This document shows, in pieces, positions 8,579-53,473 of a stretch of DNA of 64,000 bases (the first letter of the stretch is position 1; each line of letters starts with the position of its first letter). Position numbers and translations under genes: made by a program. Source of the stretch: Bacteroidales bacterium (GTDB taxonomy: Bacteria > Bacteroidota > Bacteroidia > Bacteroidales > UBA932); the NCBI GenBank assembly GCA_017400135.1, contig JAFPVJ010000027.1:1-64000 (forward strand), given 5' to 3'. Under the pieces are notes generated by a model, which was given only the letters and a program-made list of their open reading frames with translations, made no database searches and was not told the DNA's origin.

Positions 8579-8582
8579 AGGC

Positions 8583-9430: not shown

Positions 9431-9462
9431 TTTGCTTTTCTTGGGCATTCTGGCTAAATTTG
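9431..9462 (+). promoter_or_regulatory. Promoter: TTTG-N20-TAAATTTG
   Basis: TTTG at 9431-9434 and TAAATTTG at 9455-9462, spaced by 20 bases, match both elements of the Bacteroidota housekeeping promoter, 33 bases before the transglycosylase-like gene. Confidence 0.6.
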
Positions 9463-9494
9463 TGAATACGGATGTCTCCAAAACGGATCGTATC

Positions 9495-10244: not shown

Positions 10245-10262
10245 ATCCTGGCCGAGCCTGTT

Positions 10263-16101: not shown

Positions 16102-16104
16102 ACT

Positions 16105-16473: not shown

Positions 16474-16484
16474 AACCCTGACTG

Positions 16485-17261
16485 TCAGGCTTTCCGGATC
16501 CACTTCAAGCCCAGGCGGTCGATGAGGCGGGCGGGGAGCATGGCGATGATTGGCGGCAGCAGGTGATTGGTGATTCCGGGGCTGATACAGCGCCGGCCGC
16601 GCCGCAGCGCCTTCAGGGAACGGCGGACGAGCCATTCCGGGCTGCGGAGGATGCCGATGTTCCGGAGGAATGTCCGCAGGCGGTCACCCAGGGGATAGAG
16701 GCCGGTGTCTACGGCGGCAGGGCAGACGGCCGTAACGGTCACACCGTAGGGCCGGAGTTCGTAAGAGAGTCCCCGGCTGAAACTTTTGACGTAGGCCTTG
16801 GAGGCGGAATAGACGGCGATGCCGGGGGAGGGGATGCGGGCGGTCATCGAAGAAATATTGAGGATCTGGCCGCCGCCCTTTTCTTTCATCCGTGCCCCGA
16901 AGAGGATGCAAAGCTCGGTCAAGGCCTCCATGTGCAGGCGTATCATCGTGCGGACCTTGCCCAGGCTGGCAGGTTCCAGATACTCCATGAAGAACATTCC
17001 CGCGTTGTTGACCAGCAGGTCAGGCACGCATCCGGATTCCTCGCACCAGGCGAGCACTTTAGCTGCGGCGCCTGTCTCCGTCAGGTCGAGGCAGAGCGTC
17101 TCGACGGGCACAGTCAGCGACTCCTTCGCCTGTGCCAGTTCCTCGGCTCGGTTGCTGACCAGGGCCAGTGAATACCCTTCAGACGCCAGTTGACGGGAGA
17201 AAGCCAGGCCTATGCCCGAACTTCCTCCCGTCACCAGTGCCCAGGGTTTCTGCGCAGCCAT
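16485..17261 (-). CDS. Short-chain dehydrogenase/reductase
   Basis: A 258-residue classical SDR: NAD(P)-binding TGGSSGIG near the N-terminus, the NNAG motif (LLVNNAGMFF), and catalytic Ser and YSASK (YxxxK) around residues 135-155. The substrate cannot be told; the C-terminal hydrophobic stretch resembles short-chain oxidoreductases acting on lipids or retinol-like compounds. An upstream in-frame start would add 20 residues inside the preceding gene; the ATG at 17261, 8 bases after the dehydrogenase stop, gives a standard N-terminus. It is the last gene of the seven-gene operon starting at 26.86 kb. Confidence 0.87.
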   Translation of the reverse strand: MAAQKPWALVTGGSSGIGLAFSRQLASEGYSLALVSNRAEELAQAKESLTVPVETLCLDLTETGAAAKVLAWCEESGCVPDLLVNNAGMFFMEYLEPASLGKVRTMIRLHMEALTELCILFGARMKEKGGGQILNISSMTARIPSPGIAVYSASKAYVKSFSRGLSYELRPYGVTVTAVCPAAVDTGLYPLGDRLRTFLRNIGILRSPEWLVRRSLKALRRGRRCISPGITNHLLPPIIAMLPARLIDRLGLKWIRKA

Positions 17262-17269
17262 CGGAAGAA

Positions 17270-18535: not shown

Positions 18536-18551
18536 ATTGGTTGTCAATTAA

Positions 18552-20489
18552 TTACGCTAACATGACCTGGCCGCCCGTGATCGGGATGGCCTGTCCGGTC
18601 TCGCCGGTCTGGTCGATGGCATACAGGATGGCCTTGCACACATCCTCCGGATTGCAGCCTTTGCGCATGGGCACCTTCGAGAGGTAGTACTCCCGCACGT
18701 CGGCGACCGTCTTGGCGCCGGGCACCTTGCCCGCATTCAGGTACTGGATGAACAGGCCCTTCTCCGGGTCGCTCCATAGCGGTCCGTCCAGGTAGTTGCC
18801 CGGGCAGATGGCGTTGACCTTGATGCGGAAGGGAGCCAGCTCGAGGGCGAAGGACTGGGTCAGTCCGATGCCGCCGAACTTGCTGCCCGCGTAGGCGTAG
18901 TTGGCCTTCGAGCCGACCAGGCCGCTCTTGGAGTTGACCTGGATGATGTCGGCGAAATACTCCGGGTCGCGCGCCGTCTGGACTTTCATCACGTGGCTCG
19001 CCACCTTAGAGCAATAGAAGAAGGCGTGGTAGTTGATTTTAGTAACAAATTCAAAGGTCTCGGGGGTCAGGGTTTCGAGGTCTCCGGCACGGGCGACGCC
19101 GGCGTTGGAGACAAAGCAGTCGAGTGCGCCGAACTGCAGGACGGTCTCGCGCACCAGCGCCTTGACGCTGTCCAGGTCGGCGACATTGGTCTTGACGAAG
19201 ATGGAGCGGTTGCCGCGGCAGAGCGTGTTGAATGCGGCCGCCGTCTTTTCGCCGGTCACCTCGTTCAGGTCGGCCACGACGATATTGGCACCCTCGCGGA
19301 TCAGTTCGCGCGCGATGCCCTCGCCGAAGCCCTGGGCGGCACCCGTCACGATGATGGTCTTGCCCTCCACGCGCCCCTTGCGGGCACCGGAGGAGACCTT
19401 GCGGCGGTAGTTCTCGACCTCCCAGTTGTCGATGAAGGCGATCTGGCGGCGGTTCATCGGATGCGCCCCGCCGAAGGATCCGGCGTACCAGGCGACCTTA
19501 ACGGCGTCAAGGAAGACGTCCGTGATGACCTGCGCATTCTTGGCGCTGTCACCGGCGGCCAGCAGGCCGACGCCCGGGACCAGGAGTACCTTGGGCGTAT
19601 GGCCGCGGCGCGCAATGTAGCGCTCGATGGCTTTCTCGGCGGCATCCGCGTCCGGGCCGTCGAGGAGGAGATATTCGCTCTTGCAGTAGACGATGCCGTC
19701 CGGGGTGAAGGGCGCCTTGACCGCGTCCCAGCTCTCCATCGCCCACTGAGTCAGGGCGTTGGACGTGACCTGGACGGTCTTGCATCCGCGTCCGGCGCGG
19801 CTCAGCACCGTGCGCATGGCGGGGACGAACTCCACGGCCTCTTCGCATACGGGGACTTCTCCTTCCGGAACCGGCTCCACGCGCGCTTCCAGCCGGGCCA
19901 TGATGCCGTCGTAGATGCGTCGGATCTCATCGGTCGTGTCGGCGCCCACGAAAATGCCGTGGTTCTGCAGGAAAATGACCTGCGGCTCGGCGCCGTTGTC
20001 CTCTCTCCAGGCCTTGATCCGGTTGTATACCTTCTTGAAAAGGGTGTAGCCGGGATCGGTGTACTCGATGTACAGGGCCTCGGGGAAGAGATCGGTGCAC
20101 TCGGCCTTGGCGAACTGCGAGCACATCATCCCGTTCACGAGCGTGGGATGGAGATGGACGACGTAGCGCCATTCCATGCAGTCGTGCAGGGAAGTCTCGA
20201 CCGAAGGGCGGCGGCCCTTGGTGAGGCAGGCGATCGCCAGGTCGTTCTTGACTTGCTCCTCGCGCACGGCAGGGTCGCTGTCATAGCGCCGACGCCGCAT
20301 CGGGGCGAGACGCTTGCGGTCGAGGACCGCGAATCCCTCTTCATCGATGGTGGCGAGGGCGTGGCCGCTGGCCTTGACCCACAGCTTTTCTGCGTCCTTG
20401 TAAGAGGTGTTGCCGCCTCCGGCGATCACGAAACGCGGATCGGCGCCGTACAGGCGGGATATTTCAATCAGTGCATCCAGTTCTTTCAT
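18552..20489 (-). CDS. Bifunctional class II aldolase / short-chain dehydrogenase
   Basis: A 645-residue fusion. The N-terminal class II aldolase half (about 1-390) has AGGGNTS, the Glu of SVETSLH, the VVHLHP zinc pair and a QNHGIFV His. The C-terminal SDR half (about 395-645) has IIVTGAAQGFGEG, FVSNAGVA and the YAYAGSK catalytic motif (YxxxK). Fusions of this type occur in rhamnose, fucose and polyol breakdown, where the aldolase cleaves a ketose-phosphate and the dehydrogenase oxidises a sugar or aldehyde; the substrate here is not defined. Its start overlaps the PHP gene by 4 bases. Confidence 0.9.
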   Translation of the reverse strand: MKELDALIEISRLYGADPRFVIAGGGNTSYKDAEKLWVKASGHALATIDEEGFAVLDRKRLAPMRRRRYDSDPAVREEQVKNDLAIACLTKGRRPSVETSLHDCMEWRYVVHLHPTLVNGMMCSQFAKAECTDLFPEALYIEYTDPGYTLFKKVYNRIKAWREDNGAEPQVIFLQNHGIFVGADTTDEIRRIYDGIMARLEARVEPVPEGEVPVCEEAVEFVPAMRTVLSRAGRGCKTVQVTSNALTQWAMESWDAVKAPFTPDGIVYCKSEYLLLDGPDADAAEKAIERYIARRGHTPKVLLVPGVGLLAAGDSAKNAQVITDVFLDAVKVAWYAGSFGGAHPMNRRQIAFIDNWEVENYRRKVSSGARKGRVEGKTIIVTGAAQGFGEGIARELIREGANIVVADLNEVTGEKTAAAFNTLCRGNRSIFVKTNVADLDSVKALVRETVLQFGALDCFVSNAGVARAGDLETLTPETFEFVTKINYHAFFYCSKVASHVMKVQTARDPEYFADIIQVNSKSGLVGSKANYAYAGSKFGGIGLTQSFALELAPFRIKVNAICPGNYLDGPLWSDPEKGLFIQYLNAGKVPGAKTVADVREYYLSKVPMRKGCNPEDVCKAILYAIDQTGETGQAIPITGGQVMLA

Positions 20490-21589
20490 GCCTCAATCGT
20501 TTTTAATATCAATTCTTCTCCGGCGGCAGGGGAGTCGAGGCCGGCTTGGTGCGCGGCGACGGCACAGGCTCCGCGCCAGTTGATTTCTCGCAGCTTTTCC
20601 GTCAGTCCTTCGGCATCCCGGGTGCGCAGGCGGATGGGCTCGAGGGCGGGGGTGTTGTGCTCGGAACCGAAGGTCACGACGAATCCCTCGTCTTCCAGAT
20701 AGCCGGCGTAGCGCTCCAGGACGGCGGTGGTGTTGCGGGTGGTGATGAATTCCACGCTGCGGAATCCGCGCCGCTTCAGGGTCGCCGCCGCCTTTTCGAG
20801 GTCGCCCTCGAAGTCGGTGAAGCAACCCTTGGCATCGTCGGCCAGGAAGGGATAGGTGGGGATGCCGCCCGCCGCCTCGATGATGCGTTGGACGGTCTCC
20901 ATCGGCAGGAAGGCCTTCGGGTCTTCGGGTACGAAAGCCGCGCCGCCCGCCTTGAGCAGCCGGCTGCGGATCTCGTTCTCGACGGCCGCCCGGTTGGCGG
21001 GATCGGCCTTCAGAGGCGTGCCGAAGAAGAGTTTCTCATACAGGGCCCGCCGGCCGGCCTCGGAAGCGCACTTGGCATCCACGGCGAGTCGCACGGCGGT
21101 CGCGAGATGGCGCTCCCGGATCGAACCGCGGGTGAGCCGGTCCCGAACCTCGTCGAAAGAGATGAGGAATCCCGCGCCCACGGCGTCCAGATGTGAGTTG
21201 AGCTTGGCGCACATACGCTCGACCTGGGCGTTGGACTCGGCCTTGACGGCGGCCAGCTGGCGCGCTTCCTTCCCCTTCAGGATGACGGGGTAGGCGAGGC
21301 CTTTGCCGCTGATGTAGGTCCGGCCCGGGTTGTTGGGGTCGTTGACCCGCAGACCCGCGGCCTGGTCCTCGGCGTTGAGGGAGATGAATTCGATGTTGAA
21401 AAGGGGGAAGAGGCGGCGACGGCCGCACTCTTCACTCCATTCCTTATATCCGTCCATCGAGTAGAAATCATTGATTCCTACCACTTTGACGCCTTCCTCC
21501 GCGGCCAGGTCGAGCGCCTGCGTGACGCTCTCGAACGCGCTGAAGGAATAGGGCGTGTGCAGATGGGCGTTGACGTCCGGAACTCTCAT
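20486..21589 (-). CDS. PHP-domain metal-dependent phosphoesterase-like protein
   Basis: A 367-residue protein beginning DVNAHLHTPYSFSAF, the PHP metal-binding HxH text, followed by GINDFYSMDGY, an EFISL acidic segment and a late FGSEHNTPAL His. PHP proteins are phosphatases, phosphodiesterases or nucleases; this one is longer than YciV-type phosphoesterases and I do not recognise a named subfamily. It lies between the dehydrogenase complex and the aldolase genes, two bases from the E1 stop and overlapping the aldolase start, so a step in that pathway (perhaps dephosphorylation) is inferred. The ATG at 21589 fits the PHP N-terminus; an upstream in-frame start lies inside E1. Confidence 0.75.
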   Translation of the reverse strand: MRVPDVNAHLHTPYSFSAFESVTQALDLAAEEGVKVVGINDFYSMDGYKEWSEECGRRRLFPLFNIEFISLNAEDQAAGLRVNDPNNPGRTYISGKGLAYPVILKGKEARQLAAVKAESNAQVERMCAKLNSHLDAVGAGFLISFDEVRDRLTRGSIRERHLATAVRLAVDAKCASEAGRRALYEKLFFGTPLKADPANRAAVENEIRSRLLKAGGAAFVPEDPKAFLPMETVQRIIEAAGGIPTYPFLADDAKGCFTDFEGDLEKAAATLKRRGFRSVEFITTRNTTAVLERYAGYLEDEGFVVTFGSEHNTPALEPIRLRTRDAEGLTEKLREINWRGACAVAAHQAGLDSPAAGEELILKTIEA

Positions 21590-21590
21590 A

Positions 21591-24071
21591 TTAGACACCC
21601 TTCTTGGCCCGCAGGATCTGCTGCGCCGCGGTGAAGTTGCCCGTCGGGACATAGTCCTTGAGCGGGATCATCTTCTCGTTGATGGCGTCGAGGAACCAGC
21701 TCGGCTGCGGGAAGAACGCCGCCTCGAGCTCGTGGCAAGGGGTGATCCAGTTGCGGGAACCGAGCACCACCGGCGCCGCGTCGAGGTAATCGAAGCAGAG
21801 GTCGGCGATGTTGGCCGCCAGGTCGTTGAGGTAGGATCCGCGGGCTGCCGCGTCGCCGGCGATGATGATGCGGCCGGTCTTCTTGACGGACTCGATGACC
21901 TTCTCATAGTTGAACGGGACGAGGGTGCGGGCGTCGATGACTTCCGCCTCGAGGCCGTACTTCTCCTTGAGCTCGTCCGCCGCCTGGAGGGCGCGGTACA
22001 GCGTGGCGCCGATCGTGAGGAAGGTGACATCCTTGCCGGGACGCTTGACGTCGGGCTCGCCGAGCGGGATCTCGTAGTATTCCGTCGGCACGCCGCCCTG
22101 GTGGAACTCCTCGCCCTTGTCGTAGATGCGCTGGCTCTCGAAGAAGATGACGGGGTCGGTGCCCTGCAAGGCGCTGTTCATCAAGCCCTTGGCGTCGTAA
22201 GGCGTGACCGGGAAGACGACCTTCAGGCCCGGGATGTGGGTGCAGAGGGAGGTCCAGTCCTGGCTGTGCTGGGCGCCGTACTTGGAGCCTACGGACACAC
22301 GCACGACGACCGGCATCTTGAGGATATTGCCGGACATCGCCTGCCACTTCGGCAGCTGGTTGAAGATTTCGTCGCCGCAGCAGCCGAGGAAGTCGCAGTA
22401 CATGATCTCGGGGATCACGCGGCCGCCGCACATCGCATAACCGATGGCCGTGCCGATGATGGCCGCCTCCGCGATCGGGGAATTGAACAGGCGGTGGTAG
22501 GGGAGCGCCTCGGTCAGGCCGCGGTAGACGGCGAAGGCGCCACCCCATTCGCGGTTCTCCTCACCGTAGGCGACCAGGGACGCATCCTTGTAGAAACGGT
22601 CGATGACCGCTTCGAAAATACCGTCCTTGATGTTGTACATCTTCATCTTGCTGACGGGCTTGCCCTCGGCGTCCAGATAGAAGCGGGTCTTGCCGGCGAT
22701 CTGCTTGACGCGCGGGTTCTCTTCCATCGGATGGTTGACTTCGGGCTTGGCGTCGCTGAGGCTGTCCACGCTGAGGTTGGAGAACATCATGTCGCCAAGG
22801 AGCTCGTTGTCTTTTACAAGGTCCATGCGCGGGGAGACGGTCTCGTCGATGGCGAGCTTGTACATCTCGAAAATGACGTCCTTCATTTCGGCCTGGATCT
22901 TGTCCAGATCGGCCTGGGTGGCGACTTTCGCGGCGACGAGCTTGTCGCCGAACTCCTTGATGCAGTCTTCGGCGAGCCAGGCTTCTATTTCCTCCTTCGT
23001 ACGATAGGAGGACTGGTCGCTCGGCGAGTGGCCGCTGTAGCGGTAGGTCACGACGTCGAGCAGGCAGGGGCCTTCCTTCTTCTCGAGGAGGGCCTTCTTG
23101 CGCCGGAAGGCGTCGATGACGGCGAGCGGGTTGTAGCCGTCCACGCGCTCGGCGTGCCAGGCCTCGGGGTTGAAGCCGGCGCCGATGCGGGCGGGGAAGG
23201 TGTAGCCCATCGTTTCGCCGCGGGTCTGGCCGCCCATCGCGTACTGGTTGTCCATGACGTTGATCAGGACGGGCAGGCCACCCTTCATGTCGCCCTCCCA
23301 GAGGGTATGGAACTGGTCCATCGAGGCGAAGGTCATGCCTTCGAGGACGGGGCCGCGGGCCATGGCGCCGTCACCGAGGTTGGCGACGACAATGCCCTTC
23401 TTGCGGTTGACTTTCTTATAGAGCGCGGCACCCACGGCGATGGCGCCGGAGCCGCCGACGATGGCGTTGTTGGGATAGATGCCGAAAGGGGTGAAGAAGG
23501 TGTGCATCGATCCGCCCAGGCCTTTGTTGAAACCGGTGGTGCGGGCGAAGATCTCCGCCATCGCGCCGTAGAGCAGGAAGCGGATGCCCAGCTGCTTGGT
23601 CGTGCCCTTGAAACCCTTGCCGGCGACGGCGACGGTCGCGCCGCCCCAGAACTCGTCCATCACTTTCTTGAGTTCCTTGTCGGGAAGGATCTCGATGGAA
23701 CGCAGGCCCTTGGCGAGGATCTCGCCGTGGGAGCGGTGGCTGCCGAAGATGAAGTCGTCGGTGTCCAGGCAGTACGCCATGCCGACCGCGGCGGCCTCCT
23801 GTCCGGCGGACAGGTGGGCGGGACCGGGGTTGTTATAGGCGACGCCATTGTAGCCGCCCGTGGTCTTGACGAGGTTGAGCATCGTCTCGAACTCACGGAT
23901 GGTGAACATGTCCCTGTAGATATGGAGAAGGTCTTCCTTGGTGAAGTTGCCTTCCTTGAGTTCGTCCTTTACAGTCTTCTTATACTGCATCACGGGGATT
24001 TCCGGGAACTTGATTTCGTGCTCGGCAGGACGACGGACCTCGTTAGGATCGATGTAAATTGATTTAGGCAT
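21591..24071 (-). CDS. 2-oxoacid dehydrogenase E1, fused alpha and beta subunits
   Basis: An 826-residue single-chain E1: thiamine-pyrophosphate alpha part first (about 40-430; GGSMHTF, TPP motif GDGAMARG ending at NVMDNQYAMGG), then the beta part (about 465-826; NSPIAEAAIIGTAIGY, YGAQHSQDW). In most bacteria these are two proteins. It decarboxylates a 2-oxoacid (or acetoin) and passes the acyl group to the lipoyl arm of E2. The substrate is not certain: branched-chain, pyruvate and acetoin enzymes share this fold. It is the third gene of the operon, after E2 and E3, and is followed directly by the PHP and aldolase genes. Confidence 0.92.
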   Translation of the reverse strand: MPKSIYIDPNEVRRPAEHEIKFPEIPVMQYKKTVKDELKEGNFTKEDLLHIYRDMFTIREFETMLNLVKTTGGYNGVAYNNPGPAHLSAGQEAAAVGMAYCLDTDDFIFGSHRSHGEILAKGLRSIEILPDKELKKVMDEFWGGATVAVAGKGFKGTTKQLGIRFLLYGAMAEIFARTTGFNKGLGGSMHTFFTPFGIYPNNAIVGGSGAIAVGAALYKKVNRKKGIVVANLGDGAMARGPVLEGMTFASMDQFHTLWEGDMKGGLPVLINVMDNQYAMGGQTRGETMGYTFPARIGAGFNPEAWHAERVDGYNPLAVIDAFRRKKALLEKKEGPCLLDVVTYRYSGHSPSDQSSYRTKEEIEAWLAEDCIKEFGDKLVAAKVATQADLDKIQAEMKDVIFEMYKLAIDETVSPRMDLVKDNELLGDMMFSNLSVDSLSDAKPEVNHPMEENPRVKQIAGKTRFYLDAEGKPVSKMKMYNIKDGIFEAVIDRFYKDASLVAYGEENREWGGAFAVYRGLTEALPYHRLFNSPIAEAAIIGTAIGYAMCGGRVIPEIMYCDFLGCCGDEIFNQLPKWQAMSGNILKMPVVVRVSVGSKYGAQHSQDWTSLCTHIPGLKVVFPVTPYDAKGLMNSALQGTDPVIFFESQRIYDKGEEFHQGGVPTEYYEIPLGEPDVKRPGKDVTFLTIGATLYRALQAADELKEKYGLEAEVIDARTLVPFNYEKVIESVKKTGRIIIAGDAAARGSYLNDLAANIADLCFDYLDAAPVVLGSRNWITPCHELEAAFFPQPSWFLDAINEKMIPLKDYVPTGNFTAAQQILRAKKGV

Positions 24072-44256: not shown

Positions 44257-45685
44257 TTAAGGTCTGACGGGTTTGTACTTGGGTACCAGGAGCTTCATGA
44301 CAACCCAGGAGATCAGGTAGGCGAGGCCGCAGTAGCAGAAGATGATGAAGTAGCCGGCGGGCTTGCCTTCGAAGCCGAGGAAGCGGAAAGCGCTTCCGGC
44401 TCCTTCGGCGTAGGTGAAGAGGTTGCCGGCTATCTTCTGGAGGGCCATCGTGGAAATGCCGCCCGCCAGCGAGCACATACCTGTCAGGGTGCCGATGGTG
44501 CTCTTGGGGAAAAGGTCGGAGATGAAACTGTAGGTGTTGGCGGCCCAGGCGGAATGCCCGGCGGCGGCGAGTCCGATCAGGATGGCGGGCCACCAGGGCG
44601 TGGCGAAACGGGCGCCCAGAGGCTGTGCCAGGATGGCGAACAGCGGGAACATCGCGAAGATGAGCATCGCCCGCATACGCGCGTCGAAGGGATGCATGCC
44701 CTTCTTCTCAACGAAATGCTTGGGCACGTAGCCGCCGAAGATGGACAGGACCGTGCAGATGGCATAGAGCGTGATCAGCAGGAGCTTGCCCTTCGGCGTG
44801 GTCGCCTTGGCGCCGAACTCCGTATCAAAGTATGACGGCGCCCAGAAGAGGAAGAACCACCACACGCAGTCGGAGATGAACTTGTTGAGGATGGCGGCCC
44901 AGGCCTGGCGGTATTTCAGACATTCCTTCAGCGGAATGGCCTTTTCCGCAGCGAGGGCGGCCTTTTCTGCCGCTTCTTCCGCGTCATCCTGGTGGATGTA
45001 TTCCAGCTCGGCCTCGTTCACCTTCGGATGGGACTCCGGCTTGTCGTACATGAACACCCAGAAGAAGACCCAGACGAAGCCCAGGGCGCCGATGATGATG
45101 AACGCCATCTCCCAGCCCATGTGCTTGGCCAGGGGAGGGATGCACAGCGGTGCGACCAGGGCGCCGATGGATGAGCCGGCGTTGAAGATCGCCGTGGCGA
45201 AGGCCCGGTCCTTCTTCGGGAAATACTCCGCCGTAACCTTGATGGCGGAGGGGAAGTTGCCGGCTTCGCCGAGGGCCAGCACGCCCCGCCAGAACATGAA
45301 CAGATAGACCGACGTGGTCGAGATGGCCAGGGCGATGTTGCTTCCGGCCTCGACCGCCTTCAGGGCCGCCGTGGACTCCAAACCGGTCATCGAGGCAGTC
45401 AGCACGCCGGTGGTGGCGTGCAGGACGGCGCCCAGGGACCAGATGATGATGGAGATGACATAACCCTTCTTGACCCCGATCCAGTCGATGAACTTACCGG
45501 CAAACAGGCAACAGATCGCATAGAAGAGAGAGAAGAATCCCGTCACCGTGCCGTATGAGGCGTCGGTCCAGTGGAATTCCGGCTTGATGAACTCTTCGTA
45601 GGTTAGGGACAGGACCTGGGTCCATGTAATTGACGGTGGTCGCGAAAAACAGCAGGGCGCAGATCCACCAGCGGAAGGAGGTCAT
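44257..45685 (-). pseudogene. MFS transporter, hexuronate (ExuT)-like, with a frameshift
   Basis: A major-facilitator transporter with the N-terminal text FRWWICALLFFATTVNYMD in one frame, then QVLSLTYEEFIKPEFHW and eleven or so membrane helices in another. The break is at about 45617-45623; the expected NYMDRQVLSL is NYMD then out of frame, consistent with loss of two bases in the Arg codon. The rest of the gene (429 open codons) is undamaged. ExuT-type transporters import glucuronate or galacturonate; that substrate is inferred by similarity from memory. The gene follows the methyltransferase genes by about 10 bases, so it probably belongs to that operon. The frameshift may be a sequencing error. 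Confidence 0.75.
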
Positions 45686-45695
45686 GCCTCCCGCA

Positions 45696-46679
45696 TTAAG
45701 CGAGGCGTTTTTCGTTGTAGTCATTCAGGGCTTTGTAGAAGGCTTGGATGTTGGCGATCGAAGTGTGAGGCGGCACGTCGCAGCCGGAGGAAAGGATGTA
45801 ATTGTCGAACTCCGACGTCTTTTCCAGCAATTCGCTGACGGCGGCATAAACCTGCTCGGGGGAGGCCTGCTGCATGATGCCGACGGGGTCGATGTTGCCC
45901 AGGACCGGAAGTTCCGGCGGACAGGCCTGAAGGGCCTCGACCATGTCGGCGCGGTTGCCGAAATGCAGGGCCCAGGCACCGGATTGGACCATCGCGTCCG
46001 TGCAGTGGCCGGTGTTGCCGCAGTTGTGCAGGATCACCTTGAACGTGTCGTCCTGGACGGCGTCGATGATCTTCTTGACATAGACCGTGCAATACTGGAG
46101 GCAGTCGTCGTTGGAGATGAGGCCGGCGGCCGGCTCGGCCATGATCACGCCGCTGATGCCGGTCTCCTTCATCGCCTGGACGTATGCGGTGATGAATGCC
46201 GTGCACTTATCCAGCAGCAGGGTGACCGTTTCCGGCTCCATGTACATCGACATCATCAGCTCTGATAGGTCGAACAGGCGCCCCGCCAGGGAGAACGGCC
46301 CGATGCAACCGCCGTAGATGGGCTTGTCCTTGACGCGGGAGGCCACGATCCGGTTGGCTTTCAGGTACTCCTGGACGCGCCCCTTGTCGAGTCCGGGGAC
46401 TTCGAGCGCGGCGACTTCATCCGCATCCGTCACCAGGCGCCCGATGACGTTCGGGATTTCATTCTCGGTGAATTTGATCTCGGCGCCGAAGGCCTCCGCC
46501 TCGACCGTAAGGTCCATGATGGCGGTCACCGCGGCGGCAGGATAAGCCTCGTTCAGGGCGCAGATGGCGTCCGCATGGGTCTGGCCGTCGGTGACGGCCT
46601 TCAGGACAGTGCTTCCGATGAGCTCGATCCCCGGATGGGTCATGATGGGGATGGCTAGCCTTTTCTTCTTTTGTAACAT
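45696..46679 (-). CDS. MtaA/CmuA-like (uroporphyrinogen decarboxylase family) methyltransferase
   Basis: A 327-residue URO-D-fold protein resembling methylcobamide:acceptor methyltransferases. The zinc ligand text HNCGNTGHC near residue 220 and the SSGCDVPPHT end fit the MtaA/CmuA type, which moves a methyl group from a corrinoid protein to an acceptor. Which acceptor is used here is unknown; coenzyme M is not expected in this phylum, so folate or homocysteine are possibilities. It is part of a four-gene corrinoid run. I start at the ATG at 46679, reading MLQKKKRLAIPIM; an ATG at 46703 would extend further into the preceding gene. Confidence 0.82.
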   Translation of the reverse strand: MLQKKKRLAIPIMTHPGIELIGSTVLKAVTDGQTHADAICALNEAYPAAAVTAIMDLTVEAEAFGAEIKFTENEIPNVIGRLVTDADEVAALEVPGLDKGRVQEYLKANRIVASRVKDKPIYGGCIGPFSLAGRLFDLSELMMSMYMEPETVTLLLDKCTAFITAYVQAMKETGISGVIMAEPAAGLISNDDCLQYCTVYVKKIIDAVQDDTFKVILHNCGNTGHCTDAMVQSGAWALHFGNRADMVEALQACPPELPVLGNIDPVGIMQQASPEQVYAAVSELLEKTSEFDNYILSSGCDVPPHTSIANIQAFYKALNDYNEKRLA

Positions 46680-47317
46680 CTTGTGTTCTTGCAGATTTGA
46701 CAATGGTAGGGTTGGCGCTGGAGGGTTTCTCCCAGGGCGAAGAAGCCGCTGACGGACTTCTCTGGGGTCATAAGCGAGGATTCAGAGAGGATGATGCCGC
46801 ACGGCCGCTCCGGAAACAGCGAGAACAGCAGTTGCTGCTCTCGGATGTTCCAGTTGCAGTAACCGGGGCTGTAGGGCATGGAGATCGTTTCGGTGCCGGT
46901 GTAGTCCTTTTCCATCTGTGCGACGGTCATTTCGGCGAGCACGGTCCCGATCGAGTCGGCGATGAATTCGGCGACGATGTCATCCTCCGCCTTCAGGGCC
47001 TCTTTCGCCCGGTCGAACTCCCAGCCGGCGGTGCCGACGAAGAGCAGGGCGTGGGTCATGCCGTTCAGGTAGGAACAGATGATGCCTTCCGGCGTGAAGG
47101 TCTTGCCGGCGAAACGCACCTGCCGGGGGGAGAGCTTCTCCGCCTCGACGATCTGGTACATGTAGCGCAGGGTGGCCTCGGGGACCAGGCGTTCGCGCAT
47201 CTGCAGGACCAGGTCCCGCACCCGTTCGTCGGGTACGGAATCCTTGTAGCCCATCGCGAACCACACTTCCTTTTCGGGCAGTTCTTCAGGGCTGATCCGG
47301 AAGGCCCGCTCGATCAT
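46655..47317 (-). CDS. Methionine synthase activation-domain-like protein (corrinoid reactivation)
   Basis: A 220-residue protein whose C-terminal half matches the activation domain of B12-dependent methionine synthase: YSPGYCNWN, LFSLFPERPCGIIL and SLMTPEKSVSGFFALG, the region that binds S-adenosylmethionine. The end carries CQICKNTRC, a possible metal or FeS site. Stand-alone relatives occur next to corrinoid methyltransferases and are thought to reactivate oxidised cobalamin; that role is inferred from context here. The ATG shares an A with the stop of the corrinoid-protein gene (TGATG), so translation is coupled. Confidence 0.8.
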   Translation of the reverse strand: MIERAFRISPEELPEKEVWFAMGYKDSVPDERVRDLVLQMRERLVPEATLRYMYQIVEAEKLSPRQVRFAGKTFTPEGIICSYLNGMTHALLFVGTAGWEFDRAKEALKAEDDIVAEFIADSIGTVLAEMTVAQMEKDYTGTETISMPYSPGYCNWNIREQQLLFSLFPERPCGIILSESSLMTPEKSVSGFFALGETLQRQPYHCQICKNTRCYKRRKG

Positions 47318-47934
47318 CAGGAAAGCAGTCTTTTGGCGACTTCGACCGCCTCGTTGGCGTTGGTGCTGAAACCGTCCGCGCCGATGCTGGAAGCAAATTC
47401 GGCCGTAACGGGAGCGCCGCCGATCATGGTCTTGACGGGCAGCCCGTCGGCCTTGACGGCATCGACGACTTCCTTCATGTAGTCCATCGTCGTCGTCAGC
47501 AGGGCGGACATGGCGATGATGTCGGCGTTGTTCTCCTTGGCCGCTTCGATGAAGCGCTCCTTGGAGACGTCGGTGCCGAGGTTAACCACCTTGAAGCCGC
47601 GGCCCTCCAGCATCGAGGCCACGAGATTCTTGCCGATGTCGTGGAGATCGCCCTTGACCGTGCCGATGACCACCGTACCAAGGGTCGTGGTCTGTTCGGC
47701 GAGCATCAGGGGCTTCAGGATGTCCAGGGCGGTCTTCATCGCACGGGCGCTGAGCAGCAGATTGGGGACGAAAACCCGACCGGCCTCGAATTCCTTACCG
47801 ATGGCTTCCATGGCGGGGATCATCGACTCATCGATAATGTCCTGGGGGCTCTTGCCTTCGTCCAGGGAGGCCTGGACGGCATTTTTTGCCAGAGGGGCCA
47901 TGCCCCTGAAAATGGCGTCGTAAAGCGGATTCAT
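47317..47934 (-). CDS. Corrinoid-binding methyl carrier protein
   Basis: A 205-residue two-domain cobalamin protein: a helical cap (about 1-85) and a Rossmann-like B12-binding domain with the lower-ligand motif DLHDIGKN (DxHxxG) and an SALLTTTMDYM segment and GGAPVT loop. It is the MtaC/MtbC-type carrier that receives a methyl group from a substrate through one methyltransferase and hands it to an acceptor through another. The URO-D-type methyltransferases on both sides of it in the operon are the obvious partners. Confidence 0.92.
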   Translation of the reverse strand: MNPLYDAIFRGMAPLAKNAVQASLDEGKSPQDIIDESMIPAMEAIGKEFEAGRVFVPNLLLSARAMKTALDILKPLMLAEQTTTLGTVVIGTVKGDLHDIGKNLVASMLEGRGFKVVNLGTDVSKERFIEAAKENNADIIAMSALLTTTMDYMKEVVDAVKADGLPVKTMIGGAPVTAEFASSIGADGFSTNANEAVEVAKRLLS

Positions 47935-47936
47935 AT

Positions 47937-49196
47937 CTATGCGCGAATTTCTTTCAAAGTATCCATCAAGGCGACCACGTTCTCGACGGGGACGTTCGCC
48001 TGGATGTTGTGGACGGTGTTGTACACGAAACCTCCGCCCTTGCCGAAGATGTCACAAAGTTTCATGACTTCCTCGCGGACCTGGGCCGGCGTGCCGAAGG
48101 GGAGGGTTTTCTGCGTGTCGACGCCGCCGCCCCAGAAGGTGACGCGGTCGCCGAACTCATCTTTCAGACGCTGGGGATCCATGCCCGTCGCGGCGATCTG
48201 GACGGGGTTGATGATGTCGAAACCGGCATTGATCAGGCTGTCGATCAGAGGGTAGATGGCGCCGCAGCAGTGTTTGAAGGTCTTCCAGGTGGTATGCTGG
48301 TGGATCCAGTCGTTCATCCGCTGGTAATAGGGGACGAACAGGTCGTTGAGGGTGTCGACGGAGAGGAACTGGCTGGTCTGGGTGCCGAAATCGGCGCCGC
48401 AGACATAAACGACGTCCACGTTGGATCCGACGGTGTTCCAGATCTTTTCCAGATTCTTGACGGCGAGGGCCGACTGGCGGTCGAACATTTCCTTGATATA
48501 GTCCGGGCGGCAGACCGTGGACATGTACCATTCGGCGACGCTCCGGATGCCGCGCGGCTCACGGATGGCGGGCGAAATGATGCGCGCCACGTCGCCCAGG
48601 GCCATGCCGCCGAATCCGGCGACGACCGCCCGTCCGGTCGCGGCGGCCCGGTCGGTCACGATCTTCCAGTAGTTGAGGGTCTCGTCGTCGATCTCTCCGT
48701 ATTCCTGGAGATTGTCCTCGACATTGAGGTTGTCGTCGTCGATTTCGCCCGGCTGCCGCTCGATCGAGTCGAAGAAATAGCAGCGTTCGGGCATGTGACA
48801 CGACGGCGGGAGGGACTTGTCGCCCTCGGGATAGGAATAGAGACCACCGTCCTTCTCGGTGAACGAGTCCACCATCTTGGCAGGGAGCATCACCACCTGC
48901 CCCCAGGGCATGCGGTATTCCTTCCAGTCCTTGTTCCAGACACCGATCGAATTCTTGGGCCCGAAGCAGCCGGCCGTGTCGGTGCCGAGGGCTTTCGCCA
49001 GGTCATCCTCGATATAACCCAGCATCTGTCCGGGTTCATGCACGTATACGGGGTGTTTGTCCAGTCCGTAATGATCCCGCAGGGCCTCGACGACCTTGCA
49101 ATGGATGCCGGTCACCGGCGTCGTTCCGAAGTCGACCGCGATCCTGTCTGCTTCCTTGTGCTCCAGCACGGTCCTGATTCTCTCTTTTCCAGTCAT
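47937..49196 (-). CDS. Uroporphyrinogen decarboxylase-family corrinoid methyltransferase
   Basis: A 419-residue URO-D-fold protein, longer than heme-pathway HemE and lacking its N-terminal signature, with the likely zinc text FKHCCGAIYPL near residue 310. In methyltransferase systems such a protein demethylates a substrate onto the corrinoid carrier. It is the first gene of the run, 2 bases before the carrier gene, and its promoter region faces the B12-uptake operon. The methylated substrate is unknown; the linked sugar-acid-type transporter suggests a methylated carbohydrate, which is speculative. Confidence 0.85.
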   Translation of the reverse strand: MTGKERIRTVLEHKEADRIAVDFGTTPVTGIHCKVVEALRDHYGLDKHPVYVHEPGQMLGYIEDDLAKALGTDTAGCFGPKNSIGVWNKDWKEYRMPWGQVVMLPAKMVDSFTEKDGGLYSYPEGDKSLPPSCHMPERCYFFDSIERQPGEIDDDNLNVEDNLQEYGEIDDETLNYWKIVTDRAAATGRAVVAGFGGMALGDVARIISPAIREPRGIRSVAEWYMSTVCRPDYIKEMFDRQSALAVKNLEKIWNTVGSNVDVVYVCGADFGTQTSQFLSVDTLNDLFVPYYQRMNDWIHQHTTWKTFKHCCGAIYPLIDSLINAGFDIINPVQIAATGMDPQRLKDEFGDRVTFWGGGVDTQKTLPFGTPAQVREEVMKLCDIFGKGGGFVYNTVHNIQANVPVENVVALMDTLKEIRA

Positions 49197-49247: not shown

Positions 49248-49255
49248 TATCTTTG
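49248..49255 (+). promoter_or_regulatory. -7 box (TATCTTTG) for the B12-uptake operon
   Basis: A perfect TAnnTTTG match immediately upstream of the cobalamin riboswitch, so transcription would begin at the riboswitch 5' end. Confidence 0.55.
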
Positions 49256-49261
49256 TGCCGG

Positions 49262-49460
49262 ATTGCGGTGTCTTGACCGGGTTTGCCCGGCAGACTCAAA
49301 AGGGAACCCGGCGTGCATCCGGGACTGTGCCCGCAGCTGTGTCATCCGAAAACGGCTTCGAATCCATCGCCATTGGGGCTTTTGGGGCTCCGAGAAGGCC
49401 GGAGCCGGGAGAAGTCAGAAGACCTGCCGCATTCAAGTTGAACAAGGTGGCTCGGGGACA
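49262..49460 (+). ncRNA. Cobalamin riboswitch
   Basis: The leader of the BtuG/BtuB genes carries the B12-box AGTCAGAAGACCTGCCGC (49413-49430) and the upstream conserved core (about 49299-49340) with AGGGAA, TGCATCCGGGACTGTGCCCGCAGCTGT-like text, as in class-I cobalamin riboswitches. Adenosyl- or methylcobalamin binding would lower expression of the downstream uptake genes. A GTGGCTCGGGGACAAGCCGC region (49447 on) may be the expression platform before the ATG at 49490. The 290-base gap is otherwise only promoter sequence. Confidence 0.9.
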
Positions 49461-49489: not shown

Positions 49490-50674
49490 ATGAAAAAAGC
49501 ATTTCTTGCTGCTTTGGCCGCGGGGCTCCTGGCGTTCCCGGCCTGTGACATCGTGGAATTCGGGTCGAACGGACCTGTGGAAGATCCCTCCAGGGATGAG
49601 GAACTGACCGGTGAAAAAGTGGATGTCTCCGCGATTCCGGCGGATGTCAGAAAGGTTTTCGTATTGGATGAGGGCGGCATGGGCTCCAACAACGCGACTC
49701 TGGATTTCCTGCGCGTCAGTGACGGCAATTATGTCACGGGTGCCTTCAAGAAGATGAATCCTTCCGTCGGCGCAGGCCTCGGCGACGTGGGTAACGACAT
49801 CGCGGTTCACGGCGACGAGGTTTGGATCGTGGTCAACAACTCCGGCATCGTGGAAGTCCTTTCCGCGAAGGATGAGACGGAACTGGCCGCCATCCAGATT
49901 CCCACGCCCCGGAACATCGCCTTTGACGATAAATATGCGTATGTTTCTTCCTGGGCGGGCGCATACGCCACCGGGAATTATGATATGGGCTATTATGCCA
50001 TCACGGACTACAAGAACCCCAAGGGACTGGTCTGGCGCATCAACCTGGGTACCCGGCAGCTCGAAGGTTTCCCCGTCGAGGTCGGTTACCAGCCCGAGGG
50101 CCTTGCCGTCCAGGATGGAAAGCTCTACGTGGCCAATTCCGGCGGCATCTCCAGCCAGCTTCCTCCGAGCTATTCCTACGACAGGACCGTCAGCATCATC
50201 GATACCAAGACTTTCACGGTCACGAAGACCGTGGACGTGCAGGTCAACCTCAAGAACGTCTATGCCGACGGAGCGGGCAACGTCTATGTCACCTGCCTCG
50301 GTGACTACTGGAGCACGCATTCCGGCCTGTACATGATCGACAGGAACGATGCCGTTAAGCACGTCTCCGACTATGTGAGCGTGTCCGCCATCAAGGATGG
50401 CATCGTCTACTGCATCGGAACGGAGGATGAATTTGACTGGAGCGGCGCGCCCAAGACCTGGAAGGCCTGGTCCTGCCAGAACGGGACGAAGTCCAGCCTG
50501 TCCTGGCCCGTCGACGCCACGACGCCCTACGGTCTCTGTGCGTTCGACGCGAGCACCTACCTCCTGGGCGATGCCGGTGATTACTTCAATCCCGGCAACG
50601 TGAGCCTGTACGGCGGCGGCAAGAAGTGGACGGTCACCGCGGGTGTCTGTCCCGGTCACTTCGCCATCTGGTAG
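49490..50674 (+). CDS. btuG: BtuG-like surface cobalamin-binding lipoprotein
   Basis: A 394-residue lipoprotein (signal ending AFPAC, Cys19) with a seven-bladed YncE-like propeller: repeated strands such as GNDIAVHGDEVWIVVNNSGIVE in part, YQPEGLAVQDGKLYVANSGG and NVYADGAGNVYVTCLGDYW. In Bacteroides BtuG binds B12 very tightly at the cell surface and passes it to BtuB. Assignment rests on the propeller lipoprotein plus position between a cobalamin riboswitch and BtuB; the sequence family is divergent so I keep the label moderate. Confidence 0.8.
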   Translation: MKKAFLAALAAGLLAFPACDIVEFGSNGPVEDPSRDEELTGEKVDVSAIPADVRKVFVLDEGGMGSNNATLDFLRVSDGNYVTGAFKKMNPSVGAGLGDVGNDIAVHGDEVWIVVNNSGIVEVLSAKDETELAAIQIPTPRNIAFDDKYAYVSSWAGAYATGNYDMGYYAITDYKNPKGLVWRINLGTRQLEGFPVEVGYQPEGLAVQDGKLYVANSGGISSQLPPSYSYDRTVSIIDTKTFTVTKTVDVQVNLKNVYADGAGNVYVTCLGDYWSTHSGLYMIDRNDAVKHVSDYVSVSAIKDGIVYCIGTEDEFDWSGAPKTWKAWSCQNGTKSSLSWPVDATTPYGLCAFDASTYLLGDAGDYFNPGNVSLYGGGKKWTVTAGVCPGHFAIW

Positions 50675-52659
50675 TGTCCCGCCGCAGGGTCATATTGCTC
50701 TTATTCCTCGTATCCGCCCCTTTGCGCCTGACGGCCCAGGAGGCGGATACGCTGGCATCGGCACAGGTCTTTTCCGTAAAGGCGCGCCCCGTCGTGCGCC
50801 CGGTGGAGGAAATGTACCTGCCCTCGCAGGTGGCCGCACCGGCCCAGGTGGCCGAGGTGCTGCGGCATTTCACCGGCGTGCAGGTCAAGGACTACGGCGG
50901 CGTCGGCGGCCTCAAGACGGTCAACGTCCGCAGCCTGGGCAGCGAGCACGTGGGCATCTTCCTGGACGGGATCCAGGTCGACAACGCGCAGAACATGCAG
51001 GTGGACCTGGGGCGCTTCTCCACCGCCGGTATCGGTACGGTCGCCCTCTTCAACGGGCAGAAAAGCCGCCGCCTGCAGACGGCGAAGGAATATGCGTCCG
51101 GGGCCGCCGTGCACTTGAATTCGGCGCGCCCGGTCTACGGAGACGGCAGCCATGGCCAGGCAAAGCTCCGGGGCGGTTCGTTCGGAACCGTCAATCCTTC
51201 CCTGCAATGGGACAAGGATCTCTGGAAGGGTGTGACGCTGCGCACGGCGGCGGAATTCCTGACCAGCAACGGCCGCTATAAATTCCCCTGTTTCGACACG
51301 ACCCTCGTCCGCGAGAACGGCGACATCCGCAGCCTTCGCCTGGAGGCGCAGCTTTTCGGGCAGTCGCAGCGGGATGACTGGCAGTTTCGGGCCTACGCCT
51401 ACGGCTCCGAACGTGGCTTTCCCGGCCCGGTCATTCGCAGAGCCCTGGGTTTTCCCTTCAGCGCCGAGCGGCAGGCCGACCAGGATATCTTTATCCAGGG
51501 TGGCTGGAACCGGGACTGGTCGGAACGCTATGCGACGGCCCTGCGCCTGAAATATGCCGACAGTTATACCCATTACGACACCCATCCGGAGAAGAATCCC
51601 ATGGCCCTGCCCTACGACTTGCATTACCGGCAGCGCTCGGGCTATGTATCTGTGGCTCAGTCCTACGTGCTGGCGAATCCCTGGTCGGTGGACCTGAGCA
51701 CGGACCTGCAGCGAAACGCCCTGGACTCGGACGTGGGTCAGTTCGTCACGCCGCGGCGCACCGCTTTCACCGGCGCTCTGGCGACGCGTGTGGCCTGGGA
51801 GCGTTTCCGGGCGGCGGCCCATCTCGTTTATATGGGCGCGTGGGACTGCTTCGACTCTCCGGATGCGGGGGGCTGGACCCGGGAGAACGGTTACCGGGAC
51901 GCCTGGATGCCTTCGCTCAGTCTCTTCTGGAGCCCGCTCGAAGGCCTGGAATGGGACGCCTACGCCAAGCGGAGCTATCGCCTTCCGTCCTTCAACGACC
52001 TCTATTACAGCCAGATGGGGAATTCCTCGCTGGTCCCGGAATCGGCCCTGCAGTTCGGGACCGACTTGCGCTACACCTACTGGCCCCGTCCCTGGTACTG
52101 GGAGGCCCGCGTCTCGCCCTATTACAACCGCGTGAGCGACAAGATTGTGGCCATTCCGACCTCGTCCCAGTTCCGCTGGACCATGCTCAACATCGGTGTC
52201 GTGGATGTCCTGGGCATGGACGTCAAGGCCAAGGCCGCCTGCCAGGCTGGACCGTGGGACATCGGCGCGACACTGCGTTATTCTTATCAGCGCGCCCTGG
52301 ACCACAGTACGCCGGGCAGCCAGACCTATGGGAACCAGATTCCCTACATTCCCCTCCACAGCGGCAGCCTGACCCTTTCGGCCCACGGGAACGGCTGGTC
52401 TTTCGCCTGGGACAGCAGTTTCACAGGCGGGAAATGGTCCCGGACCGCGAACACGCCGGACTATTACATCGAGCCCTGGTCACTGAGCGACGTCACCGTC
52501 GGGCGCTCTTTCCCCTTGAAGGCCGTCAGAGAGTCGTCCATGTCCAAGCTGGTGGTCTCCCTGGCGCTGAACAATATTTTCAATACACACTACGAAATCG
52601 TCCAGGGCTATCCCATGCCCGGATTCAACGCGCTCCTTTCCGTAGAATACAAATGGTAA
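50674..52659 (+). CDS. btuB: TonB-dependent cobalamin receptor BtuB
   Basis: A 661-residue outer-membrane TonB-dependent receptor. A signal peptide (SRRRVILLLFLVSAPLRLTAQ) is followed by a plug domain (LRHFTGVQVKDYGGVGG, VNVRSLGSEHVGIFLDG) and a barrel ending LLSVEYKW with a terminal Trp. It imports cobalamin using TonB energy, together with BtuG, under the riboswitch. The start is the GTG at 50674, sharing the last base of the BtuG TAG stop; no ATG lies before the signal sequence in this frame. Confidence 0.9.
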   Translation: MSRRRVILLLFLVSAPLRLTAQEADTLASAQVFSVKARPVVRPVEEMYLPSQVAAPAQVAEVLRHFTGVQVKDYGGVGGLKTVNVRSLGSEHVGIFLDGIQVDNAQNMQVDLGRFSTAGIGTVALFNGQKSRRLQTAKEYASGAAVHLNSARPVYGDGSHGQAKLRGGSFGTVNPSLQWDKDLWKGVTLRTAAEFLTSNGRYKFPCFDTTLVRENGDIRSLRLEAQLFGQSQRDDWQFRAYAYGSERGFPGPVIRRALGFPFSAERQADQDIFIQGGWNRDWSERYATALRLKYADSYTHYDTHPEKNPMALPYDLHYRQRSGYVSVAQSYVLANPWSVDLSTDLQRNALDSDVGQFVTPRRTAFTGALATRVAWERFRAAAHLVYMGAWDCFDSPDAGGWTRENGYRDAWMPSLSLFWSPLEGLEWDAYAKRSYRLPSFNDLYYSQMGNSSLVPESALQFGTDLRYTYWPRPWYWEARVSPYYNRVSDKIVAIPTSSQFRWTMLNIGVVDVLGMDVKAKAACQAGPWDIGATLRYSYQRALDHSTPGSQTYGNQIPYIPLHSGSLTLSAHGNGWSFAWDSSFTGGKWSRTANTPDYYIEPWSLSDVTVGRSFPLKAVRESSMSKLVVSLALNNIFNTHYEIVQGYPMPGFNALLSVEYKW

Positions 52660-52663: not shown

Positions 52664-53473
52664 ATGCTTTTGAGTCTCCTTTACGTCCTTCTTTCCGGCA
52701 TCGCCCTGCCCGTCGGCGGCATCCAGATGCAGTATCTCTGGCGTAACCAGCTCGGCGACGTGTATTCGCTGGGCCTGGGCAGCGCCGCCTGCCTCGGCGC
52801 CGCGGCAGCCACGATGACCGGCTGGTGCTCGCTGACCGTGGGCAGTTTCATCTGCACCCTGGTCTGCACCCTGGTCTGCTTCTTCGTGACCCTGAAGGTG
52901 AATACCCAGCAACTCATCACCTTTGGCATCCTCTTCGGGACCTTCATCGGTTCGCTGGGCACCATCGTGGTGACCAACGCTCCGACCGGGGATCTGCTGA
53001 AGCAGTATTATCTCTGGGGAGCGGCCAATTTCCGCCTGGAAGGCGTGACGACGGGGGACATTATCTTCTCGTTGGCGCTCTTCGGGATCGGGCTGACGGC
53101 GGCTCTCAGTCAGGCCGGCCTGCTGACCCGGCATTTCCGGAGCGAGACGGAGATCTCCGATCTGGGGAAGGCGCTGTTGCTGCTGGCGATCATGTGCCTG
53201 GTGACCAGTGCCGTCAGCATCTGCGGCCCGATCGGCTTCATTTCCCTGGGCGTGCCGAACCTGAGCCGCCTGATCTGCAAGAAGACGGACATCCGCCATC
53301 ATTACCTGATTTCTTCCGCGATGGGGGTCGGCCTGCTGCTGGTGACGTACTTGGTCGTCCAGTATGTCAATTTCGGCATCTACCTGCCCGTCAGCGCCAC
53401 CATGGCCATCCTCGCCCTGCCTCTCATGGCCCTCATCTTCATCAAAGGAAAGACCGGCCCCGATGCAGCCTGA
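52664..53473 (+). CDS. BtuC-like ABC permease (FecCD family), N-terminally short
   Basis: A 269-residue integral-membrane protein of the FecCD/BtuC family: MQYLWRNQLGDVYSLGLGSAACLG at the start corresponds to the region after the first helix, and the cytoplasmic coupling text GPIGFISLGVPNLSR is intact. Family members have about 330 residues and ten helices; here the first helix and the RLPR segment are missing and there is no room for them, since BtuB ends 4 bases earlier. No ABC ATPase or binding protein follows. Context suggests B12 transport across the inner membrane. Confidence 0.8.
   Translation: MLLSLLYVLLSGIALPVGGIQMQYLWRNQLGDVYSLGLGSAACLGAAAATMTGWCSLTVGSFICTLVCTLVCFFVTLKVNTQQLITFGILFGTFIGSLGTIVVTNAPTGDLLKQYYLWGAANFRLEGVTTGDIIFSLALFGIGLTAALSQAGLLTRHFRSETEISDLGKALLLLAIMCLVTSAVSICGPIGFISLGVPNLSRLICKKTDIRHHYLISSAMGVGLLLVTYLVVQYVNFGIYLPVSATMAILALPLMALIFIKGKTGPDAA

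Follow-up and report, generated by a model that had tools for sequence, protein, structure and literature searches.

An operon for corrinoid methyl transfer

The window examined here, meaning the whole stretch of DNA analysed, comprises 64,000 nucleotides (positions 1-64,000, forward strand) of contig JAFPVJ010000027.1 from Bacteroidales bacterium assembly GCA_017400135.1, a ruminant-gut bacterium. On its minus strand, from 49196 to 44257, lies an operon of five genes, in the order UROD_A, CORR, ACT, UROD_B and MFS transporter. The gene set is dependent on vitamin B12 and its chemistry is, with near certainty, corrinoid methyl transfer.

47937-49196, minus strand: UROD_A, 419 amino acids (aa), URO-D superfamily (Pfam URO-D, 50.8 bits), proposed methyltransferase 1 on the donor side
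47317-47934, minus strand: CORR, 205 aa, corrinoid methyl carrier (Pfam B12-binding and B12-binding_2)
46655-47317, minus strand: ACT, 220 aa, stand-alone MetH-type reactivation protein (Pfam Met_synt_B12, 31.9 bits, cut-off 25)
45696-46703, minus strand: UROD_B, 335 aa, MtaA-like (Pfam URO-D, 200.8 bits), proposed methyl-corrinoid:thiol methyltransferase on the acceptor side
44257-45695 (open part 44257-45546), minus strand: MFS transporter of the sugar-acid (D-galactonate) type (Pfam MFS_1, 137.7 bits)

UROD_A and UROD_B both scored above the Pfam URO-D cut-off, placing them in the URO-D superfamily. CORR gave 214 bits with NCBIfam MtgC_2, below the cut-off of 370, and ACT matched the 214-residue methionine synthase chain of PDB 1j6r (4.8e-4). 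A preliminary description of this DNA had reported a complete, tightly packed operon of two URO-D-type methyltransferases, a corrinoid carrier, a reactivation-domain protein and a transporter, and all five genes were recovered by Pfam on the minus strand. The packing was borne out by the coordinates, with a gap of 2 bases between UROD_A and CORR and an overlap of 1 base between CORR and ACT; the overlap of ACT with UROD_B is 25 bases if the latter starts at the ATG at 46679 and 49 bases if it starts at the TTG at 46703. Completeness holds for the number of genes and fails in two respects. The transporter frame is broken near 45620 (range 45600-45640), close to the N-terminus, giving two tblastn pieces in different frames, and Pterin_bind, which represents the second methyltransferase of the acetogen systems, had no match in the eight proteins scanned with Pfam (the five of the operon and three divergent ones). 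With these two corrections the original observation is sound, and its interpretation as a whole was partly supported.

In relatives the transporter matched as one piece in one frame at 12/12 loci, one of which (L008) is the query's own sequence; the break reflects either an error of assembly or a lesion of recent origin. The best PDB match of the transporter was the D-galactonate transporter 6e9n (1.3e-22), and its best NCBIfam model was TIGR00893, also for D-galactonate transporters, at 149 bits and hence below the cut-off of 395 for curated membership, as were two intact relatives (189-190 bits). An aromatic-acid symporter model matched weakly (37 bits; 58.5 bits in an intact relative). The proposed coupling of a corrinoid methyltransferase set to a sugar-acid-type transporter was upheld by these best matches, and no grouping with unrelated substrates was seen.

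Gene order was surveyed in one scan of genome contigs, which returned 28 loci. UROD_A of at least 80% identity was present in 14. The records behind these 14 all belong to uncultured Bacteroidales or Bacteroidia, and eight have a ruminant in the title (water buffalo, goat, yak, reindeer). The five-gene order was complete in 10 of these 14 loci and is therefore not due to chance. Among the others, the contig ends inside the operon in L009 and L010, L014 has UROD_A-CORR-ACT-transporter and no UROD_B, and in L012 ACT directly follows UROD_A with no CORR between them before the contig ends. The same UROD_A-ACT arrangement was found in genome G260 (L049), where a CORR-like match lies on another contig. 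The settings of the operon varied, and included a site between purL and a cysS-like gene, one beside a GNAT-like gene and one beside btu genes (cysS and GNAT labelled by eye, which here and below means from the first residues of the frame with no search behind the label); occurrence in different chromosomal settings indicates that the five genes travel together. The order UROD_A-CORR-ACT-UROD_B was repeated, with UROD_A identities of 53-56%, in eight further loci (L017, L020, L021, L022, L023, L028, L030 and L031) from Bacteroides, Parabacteroides and one Alistipes metagenome-assembled genome, including records of Bacteroides fragilis, B. propionicigenes, Parabacteroides gordonii and P. faecis. 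The remaining six loci (L019, L024, L025, L026, L029 and L032) were partial or cut. In an order-wide sample UROD_A was detected (E up to 1e-60) in 25/393 genomes and 16/206 genera. For all but three of the 24 genomes besides the window's own the wider neighbourhood was inspected, with Pfam or NCBIfam applied to selected genes; none of these 21 yielded CORR, and two (L104 and L118) yielded ACT.

UROD_A and the methyl donor

UROD_A matched no PDB sequence, either as a single sequence or as profile A1 (E up to 0.1), although CdmB (9rui) was in the set, and thus has no solved relative by sequence. Of the O-demethylase methyltransferases MtvB, OdmB, VdmB, MtoB and CdmB, CdmB is the only one known to be in that set. 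CdmB was also not among the fold matches listed, from a fold library ending in April 2026. As UROD_B shared 24% identity with MtaA, no close identity of the gene set to a characterised system was found among PDB sequences.

O-methyl sugars are present in plant cell walls, the best-known case being 4-O-methylglucuronate in xylan, and the preliminary description had offered this methylated uronic acid as a speculative methyl source. The setting of the operon in the congener G281 (L014, L074 and L141) bears on this suggestion. Here the gene immediately after the transporter encodes a KDPG aldolase (365 bits against a cut-off of 275). The stretch before the divergent btu genes encodes a pectinesterase, a member of glycoside hydrolase (GH) family 88, an altronate/galactarate-type dehydratase (336 bits with GD_AH_C) and a PfkB protein resembling KDG kinase, for which the best NCBIfam models were below cut-off; by eye, it also has susC/D-like genes and a gene for a LacI-like regulator. 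These uronate genes flanking the cassette support a methylated-uronic-acid donor without proving it, and its identity as 4-O-methylglucuronate was not established.

Other glycan genes were found around more distant UROD_A genes. The four enzymes of L021 are situated between a GH26-(GH2C/GH42-like)-GH3 run and a GH26-GH130-symporter run; a sugar epimerase follows, and was identified at the same place in L028. The gene order of L020, L028 and L031 is as in L021 (by eye). The four enzymes come after a TonB receptor, NAGLU and GH120 in L017, and after GH38 and NAGLU in L030, while susC/D-like genes and a surface glycan-binding protein lie upstream in L120. UROD_A is near rhamnulokinase and alpha-fucosidase genes in L108, GH120 and GH3-like genes in L106, a GH27-type gene in L103, a ROK kinase gene in L110 (those at other loci by eye) and a class II aldolase gene in L115. 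This neighbourhood is suggestive of a sugar donor. We infer that the donor is of the O-methyl-sugar kind and, for the operon of the window, a sugar acid; the chance that it is an O-methyl hexuronate is put at about even. A protein of 1072 aa encoded upstream in the B. fragilis locus (L120, 10640-13855) was considered as a GH115 4-O-methyl-glucuronidase and rejected as proof of a link to xylan; its PDB matches were confined to the CBM6 stretch.

Several related genes were also encountered. The window's own genome has a second URO-D methyltransferase-like gene (G000:C27:117191-117868, L064), 35% identical to UROD_A over residues 218-416 and divergent from DUF4838 and rhamnogalacturonase/pectate-lyase-like genes. 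L065 (genome G107, 2577-11099) combines a UROD_A paralogue (34%), an MFS transporter (39% to that of the window), an alginate-lyase-type protein and, by eye, genes presumed to encode an aldo/keto reductase and an L-rhamnose mutarotase; the substrate of this set may be another O-methyl sugar. In a Bacteroidales cluster (L025, 8001-13948) UROD_A and CORR occur with ACT, two more proteins of URO-D type, one of them 453 aa long, and, by eye, a CobW-like GTPase. Positions 14377-24071 of the window contain, by eye, short-chain dehydrogenase, alcohol dehydrogenase, class II aldolase and keto-acid dehydrogenase genes, and genes resembling this set adjoin the UROD_A gene in L115.

UROD_B, trimmed MetH and the methyl acceptor

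By fold comparison the nearest match to UROD_B is a thiol methyltransferase; its 24% identity to MtaA is that of the fold alignment. The zinc-thiol site HxC...C is kept, as H226, C228 and C308 were invariant in 15/15 and aligned with LHICG and PGCG of MtaA. UROD_B was below the cut-offs of the MtaA/MtbA-type models (NF004889, 162/244 bits; TIGR01463, 149.6/235.4; MtaA, 129.5/400; MtbA, 136.5/600).

Genes for methionine synthesis were assessed in the window's own genome (G000, 88.6% complete) and in 300 congeners. Neither MTHFR nor Meth_synt_2 (PF01717, the MetE catalytic domain, serving as the test for MesA-D and MetE) had a match in G000, and only CORR matched the MetH model TIGR02082 (156.6 of 1010.85 bits). 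Among the congeners UROD_A was present in 12, MTHFR in 165 and any metH match in 180; MTHFR was found in 4/12 UROD_A carriers and 161/288 non-carriers (p 0.15). MTHFR was lacking in 135 congeners, eight of which carry UROD_A. Seven of these eight, G000 being the exception, keep a trimmed metH-like gene, the match of which ends in or before the folate module (span 2-477 at most in G138, G151, G197, G207 and G260, 18-468 in G179 and 2-443 in G281). In the 127 congeners with neither MTHFR nor UROD_A, a metH match was absent from 119 and present in eight; in four (G143, G216, G217 and G293) it was better than 1e-90, those of G143 and G217 looking near-full, and in four it was weaker. Inspection of matches in the UROD_A-negative genomes left out G132, G216, G293, G362, G367 and G380. 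By Fisher's test, metH matches of comparable strength were associated with UROD_A (7/8 versus 4/127, p 1.9e-8), also when all eight UROD_A-negative matches were counted (p 3.5e-7), both values being inflated by shared ancestry. An earlier table (8/8 versus 8/127) was discarded as circular, CORR itself having counted as a metH match.

The trimmed genes retain half a folate module or less, and neither a cobalamin nor a reactivation module. In G138, G151, G179, G197 and G260 Pfam matched S-methyl_trans and, for Pterin_bind, approximately its first half; G281 (L058) had S-methyl_trans alone, and a full congener MetH (L067) all five modules. All five trimmed genes checked for them (G138, G151, G179, G281 and G014) have the zinc motifs FNCS/LNCS and GGCCG, while the GERTN folate motif of L067 was kept in none of those aligned, and the G179 copy is without the DGAMGT motif. 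The main copy of G207 is cut by the contig end. A second piece on another contig (L069, 2-2026, at a contig start), also a trimmed-MetH remnant, passes the same point and continues directly, in one open frame, into an alpha-L-fucosidase domain. G179 encodes a second protein of 738 aa (L061, 2608-4821) with S-methyl_trans and a MetH reactivation domain, in which no folate module was found; it represents a further rearranged MetH.

Six of the trimmed genes formed one clade (support 1.00), and that of G281 grouped elsewhere with full MetH (0.83). Within the six-genome clade the ratio of non-synonymous to synonymous polymorphism (pN/pS) was 0.09-0.19 in the homocysteine part and 0.22-0.38 in the folate remnant, and was lower in the homocysteine part in 15/15 pairs, which are non-independent. 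The control, nine congener MetH genes of full length, gave the opposite picture, with the homocysteine part the more constrained in 0/36 pairs and the less constrained in 36/36, and strengthens the argument from selection. These data show that trimming was followed by a move of constraint to the homocysteine module; the folate remnant, with pN/pS below 1, is still under some constraint. G014, a 100% complete genome from another genus in which MTHFR had no match, encodes a homocysteine module of 320 aa as well as a CORR-ACT-UROD_B operon. The pattern therefore arose at least twice and probably three times. In several relatives without the usual folate route the operon probably supplies methyl groups for methionine, and the estimate that homocysteine is the acceptor stands close to one in two.

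The genes divergent from the operon, on the plus strand, are preceded by a cobalamin riboswitch.

49249-49445, plus strand: Cobalamin riboswitch aptamer (RF00174, 88.8 bits, gathering threshold 31.5), facing the divergent B12-uptake genes
49490-50674, plus strand: DUF5074 protein (Pfam DUF5074, 31.2 bits), first gene after the riboswitch
50626-52659, plus strand: BtuB-like TonB-dependent receptor with Plug domain (best NCBIfam model TIGR01779 TonB-B12, 68.9 bits, below the cut-off of 599.7)
52664-53473, plus strand: FecCD-family permease, BtuC-like by position (Pfam FecCD, 101.1 bits)

NCBIfam BtuC was among several FecCD-type models matched by the permease, all below cut-off. RF00174 was also detected in L014, L022, L027, L074 and L142, and was absent from L073. 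Similar B12-uptake genes diverge from the operon, with the riboswitch, in L014 and L074; in L073 and L142 they lie past the far end of the operon, and in L027, the contig of which ends there, the riboswitch is at the same place as in the window.

A candidate methyl-scavenging pathway

The reading we favour, tentatively and at somewhat less than even likelihood, is that the operon constitutes a methyl-scavenging pathway, in which the methyl group of a sugar-acid donor passes through CORR to homocysteine and yields methionine without folate. The substrate imported by the transporter would be a sugar acid bearing a methyl group, an O-methylated hexuronate being the likeliest. Family chemistry and gene order suggest that UROD_A would bind this donor and that Co(I) CORR would take off its O-methyl group, so that the unmethylated sugar acid could be catabolised. 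CORR would then carry the methyl group as methyl-Co(III), and ACT would re-reduce CORR when oxidised; attack of Co(I) on the methyl group, MetH-type reactivation and thiol activation by zinc are general properties of these families. The methyl group would pass to a zinc-bound thiol, most likely that of homocysteine, through UROD_B or, in relatives, through MetH trimmed to its homocysteine module. Methionine would thus be made without methyl-folate in genomes missing MTHFR and a complete MetH, with B12 supplied by the neighbouring riboswitch-controlled uptake genes. A bolder version, which we regard as doubtful, is that Bacteroidales of gut and rumen obtain methionine from plant sugar-acid methyl ethers; it holds UROD_A to be the first anaerobic sugar O-demethylase, acting with a MetH-derived, folate-independent methionine synthase (with or without UROD_B) that allows the loss of MTHFR and the folate branch; the homocysteine module would then be a fifth kind of folate-independent methionine synthase, fed by an O-demethylation corrinoid protein. 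We know of no earlier anaerobic sugar O-demethylase. In relation to the preliminary description, the guess at the donor is strengthened and the acceptor side is new.

A number of observations weigh against this pathway. On the donor side, no obvious sugar gene lies beside UROD_A in several order-level loci (for example L101, L105, L112 and L117, by eye), and Pfam recognised in the 1072-aa protein of L120 only CBM6/CBM35-type domains and a GH67 N-terminal domain, with no catalytic domain. On the acceptor side, the EE of MtaA is aligned with GN in UROD_B, with N250 invariant in 15/15, so that Asn occupies the position of an acidic residue with a role in MtaA, located between the two halves of the zinc site. 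No homocysteine module was seen in the window's own genome at its 88.6% completeness, and the simple association in which the operon replaces MTHFR was rejected as not significant. The four MTHFR-positive UROD_A carriers have a full or near-full MetH as well, and the pathway is therefore not the sole route to methionine there. Six of the seven trimmed MetH genes fall in one clade, which reduces the number of independent events and inflates the Fisher values. G067 and G074, two family members, each have the homocysteine module by itself, and no corrinoid protein was found in either; the module can thus persist without one.

Several of these points would also fit a different use of the same corrinoid chemistry and sugar-type donor, which we consider rather unlikely: the acceptor would be another thiol or a means of methyl disposal, the operon would only unblock a methylated sugar acid, and trimmed MetH would use betaine or S-methylmethionine. 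The four of 12 carriers with MTHFR and MetH and the lone modules of G067 and G074 agree with this, and, in the part of PMC12366255 available, betaine or dimethylsulfoniopropionate (DMSP) serves a stand-alone Bmt as the methyl source for methionine, without cobalamin. Against it, the module in MTHFR-less congeners is mostly beside the operon (7/8, versus 4/127 for comparable matches and 8/127 for any), and the scores of the trimmed genes favour MetH models (L056, 436 bits versus 137 for BHMT and 105 for MmuM-type models; L058, 371 versus 161 and 107). A methoxy-aromatic donor, with UROD_A as its O-demethylase and the transporter importing an aromatic acid, appears improbable. Among characterised O-demethylases, MtvB, OdmB and VdmB belong to the URO-D proteins (PMC13222342, in the part available), and the transporter weakly matches the aromatic-acid symporter model, but the D-galactonate model scores far higher (149 bits, and 189 in an intact relative), genes for uronate, pectin, mannan, rhamnose and fucose and for GH120 are among the neighbours, and profile A1 missed every PDB chain, CdmB included. 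We regard as quite improbable a supply of methanol or another small one-carbon compound from pectin, with UROD_A working with MtaB-like partners or as the acceptor enzyme. MtaB (PF12176) directly precedes UROD_A in L070, L071 and L072 (524, 529 and 530 bits), and the L026 cluster contains UROD_A, CORR, MtaB after CORR (533 bits), RACo and a homocysteine S-methyltransferase gene; UROD_A may be acceptor-side in these four loci, a further point against the scavenging pathway; the gene content of the L026 cluster at the same time counts in favour of that pathway. A pectinesterase is encoded in L141. No MtaB-like gene was found, however, in the operon of the window or in those of its 10 five-gene relatives, and the operon carries its own sugar-acid transporter, which methanol would not need.

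The operon shares features with several known systems. With MetH, including split MetH, it has in common the corrinoid and reactivation domains, and the trimmed MetH of relatives keeps the homocysteine module; it differs in that the folate module is absent or halved and the methyl group would come from a methylated substrate. From the methanogen MtaABC/MtbA systems it is distinguished by the below-cut-off NCBIfam scores of UROD_B and by a URO-D protein, rather than MtaB, on the donor side; coenzyme M is not expected in this organism. The acetogen O-demethylase systems (MtvABC, Odm and Vdm) and Cdm likewise combine a methyltransferase 1 of URO-D type with a small MtgC/MtaC-like corrinoid protein and a separate activator. 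The acetogen activator is of the RACo type, in contrast to the MetH-type ACT. Further differences are the failure of the UROD_A profile to find CdmB, the sugar-acid transporter and the absence of a pterin-type methyltransferase 2, which leaves the operon short of the three components, MTI, corrinoid protein and MTII, that make up the Cdm and O-demethylase systems in the available part of PMC13222342, where CdmA is drawn loaded with tetrahydrofolate.

The idea of methionine made from a corrinoid-protein methyl group without a folate domain is shared with the core methionine synthases MesA-MesD, which are relatives of the MetE catalytic domain, whereas a MetH-derived module and an MtaA-like URO-D protein are found here (PMC7857596, seen in part). 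MtrA or CoFeSP are proposed there as partners of MesA-C, and MesD needs MesX and oxygen; some Methanosarcina MesC are speculated to use other corrinoid proteins, and no O-demethylation corrinoid protein is proposed in that part of the source. The closest parallel to a homocysteine module that stands alone and takes methyl groups from outside is Phaeobacter Bmt, which uses betaine or DMSP directly (PMC12366255, in part), and similar direct donor use would be a live alternative for trimmed MetH. The operon was not named in any title among the literature matches listed, preprints on bioRxiv and most subscription papers being outside the scope. No corrinoid O-demethylase for plant-wall O-methyl sugars was found in the literature covered, which consisted of the available parts of PMC13386854 and PMC10895765 and otherwise of titles.

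The four-enzyme set in named Bacteroides and Parabacteroides genomes provides clear targets for study. If the scavenging pathway is correct, MetH would be an enzyme that loses its modules for folate, cobalamin and reactivation once a different methyl carrier is at hand. One-carbon units for methionine would then be drawn from plant methyl ethers in the rumen, and fibre breakdown, B12 supply and amino-acid synthesis would be linked.

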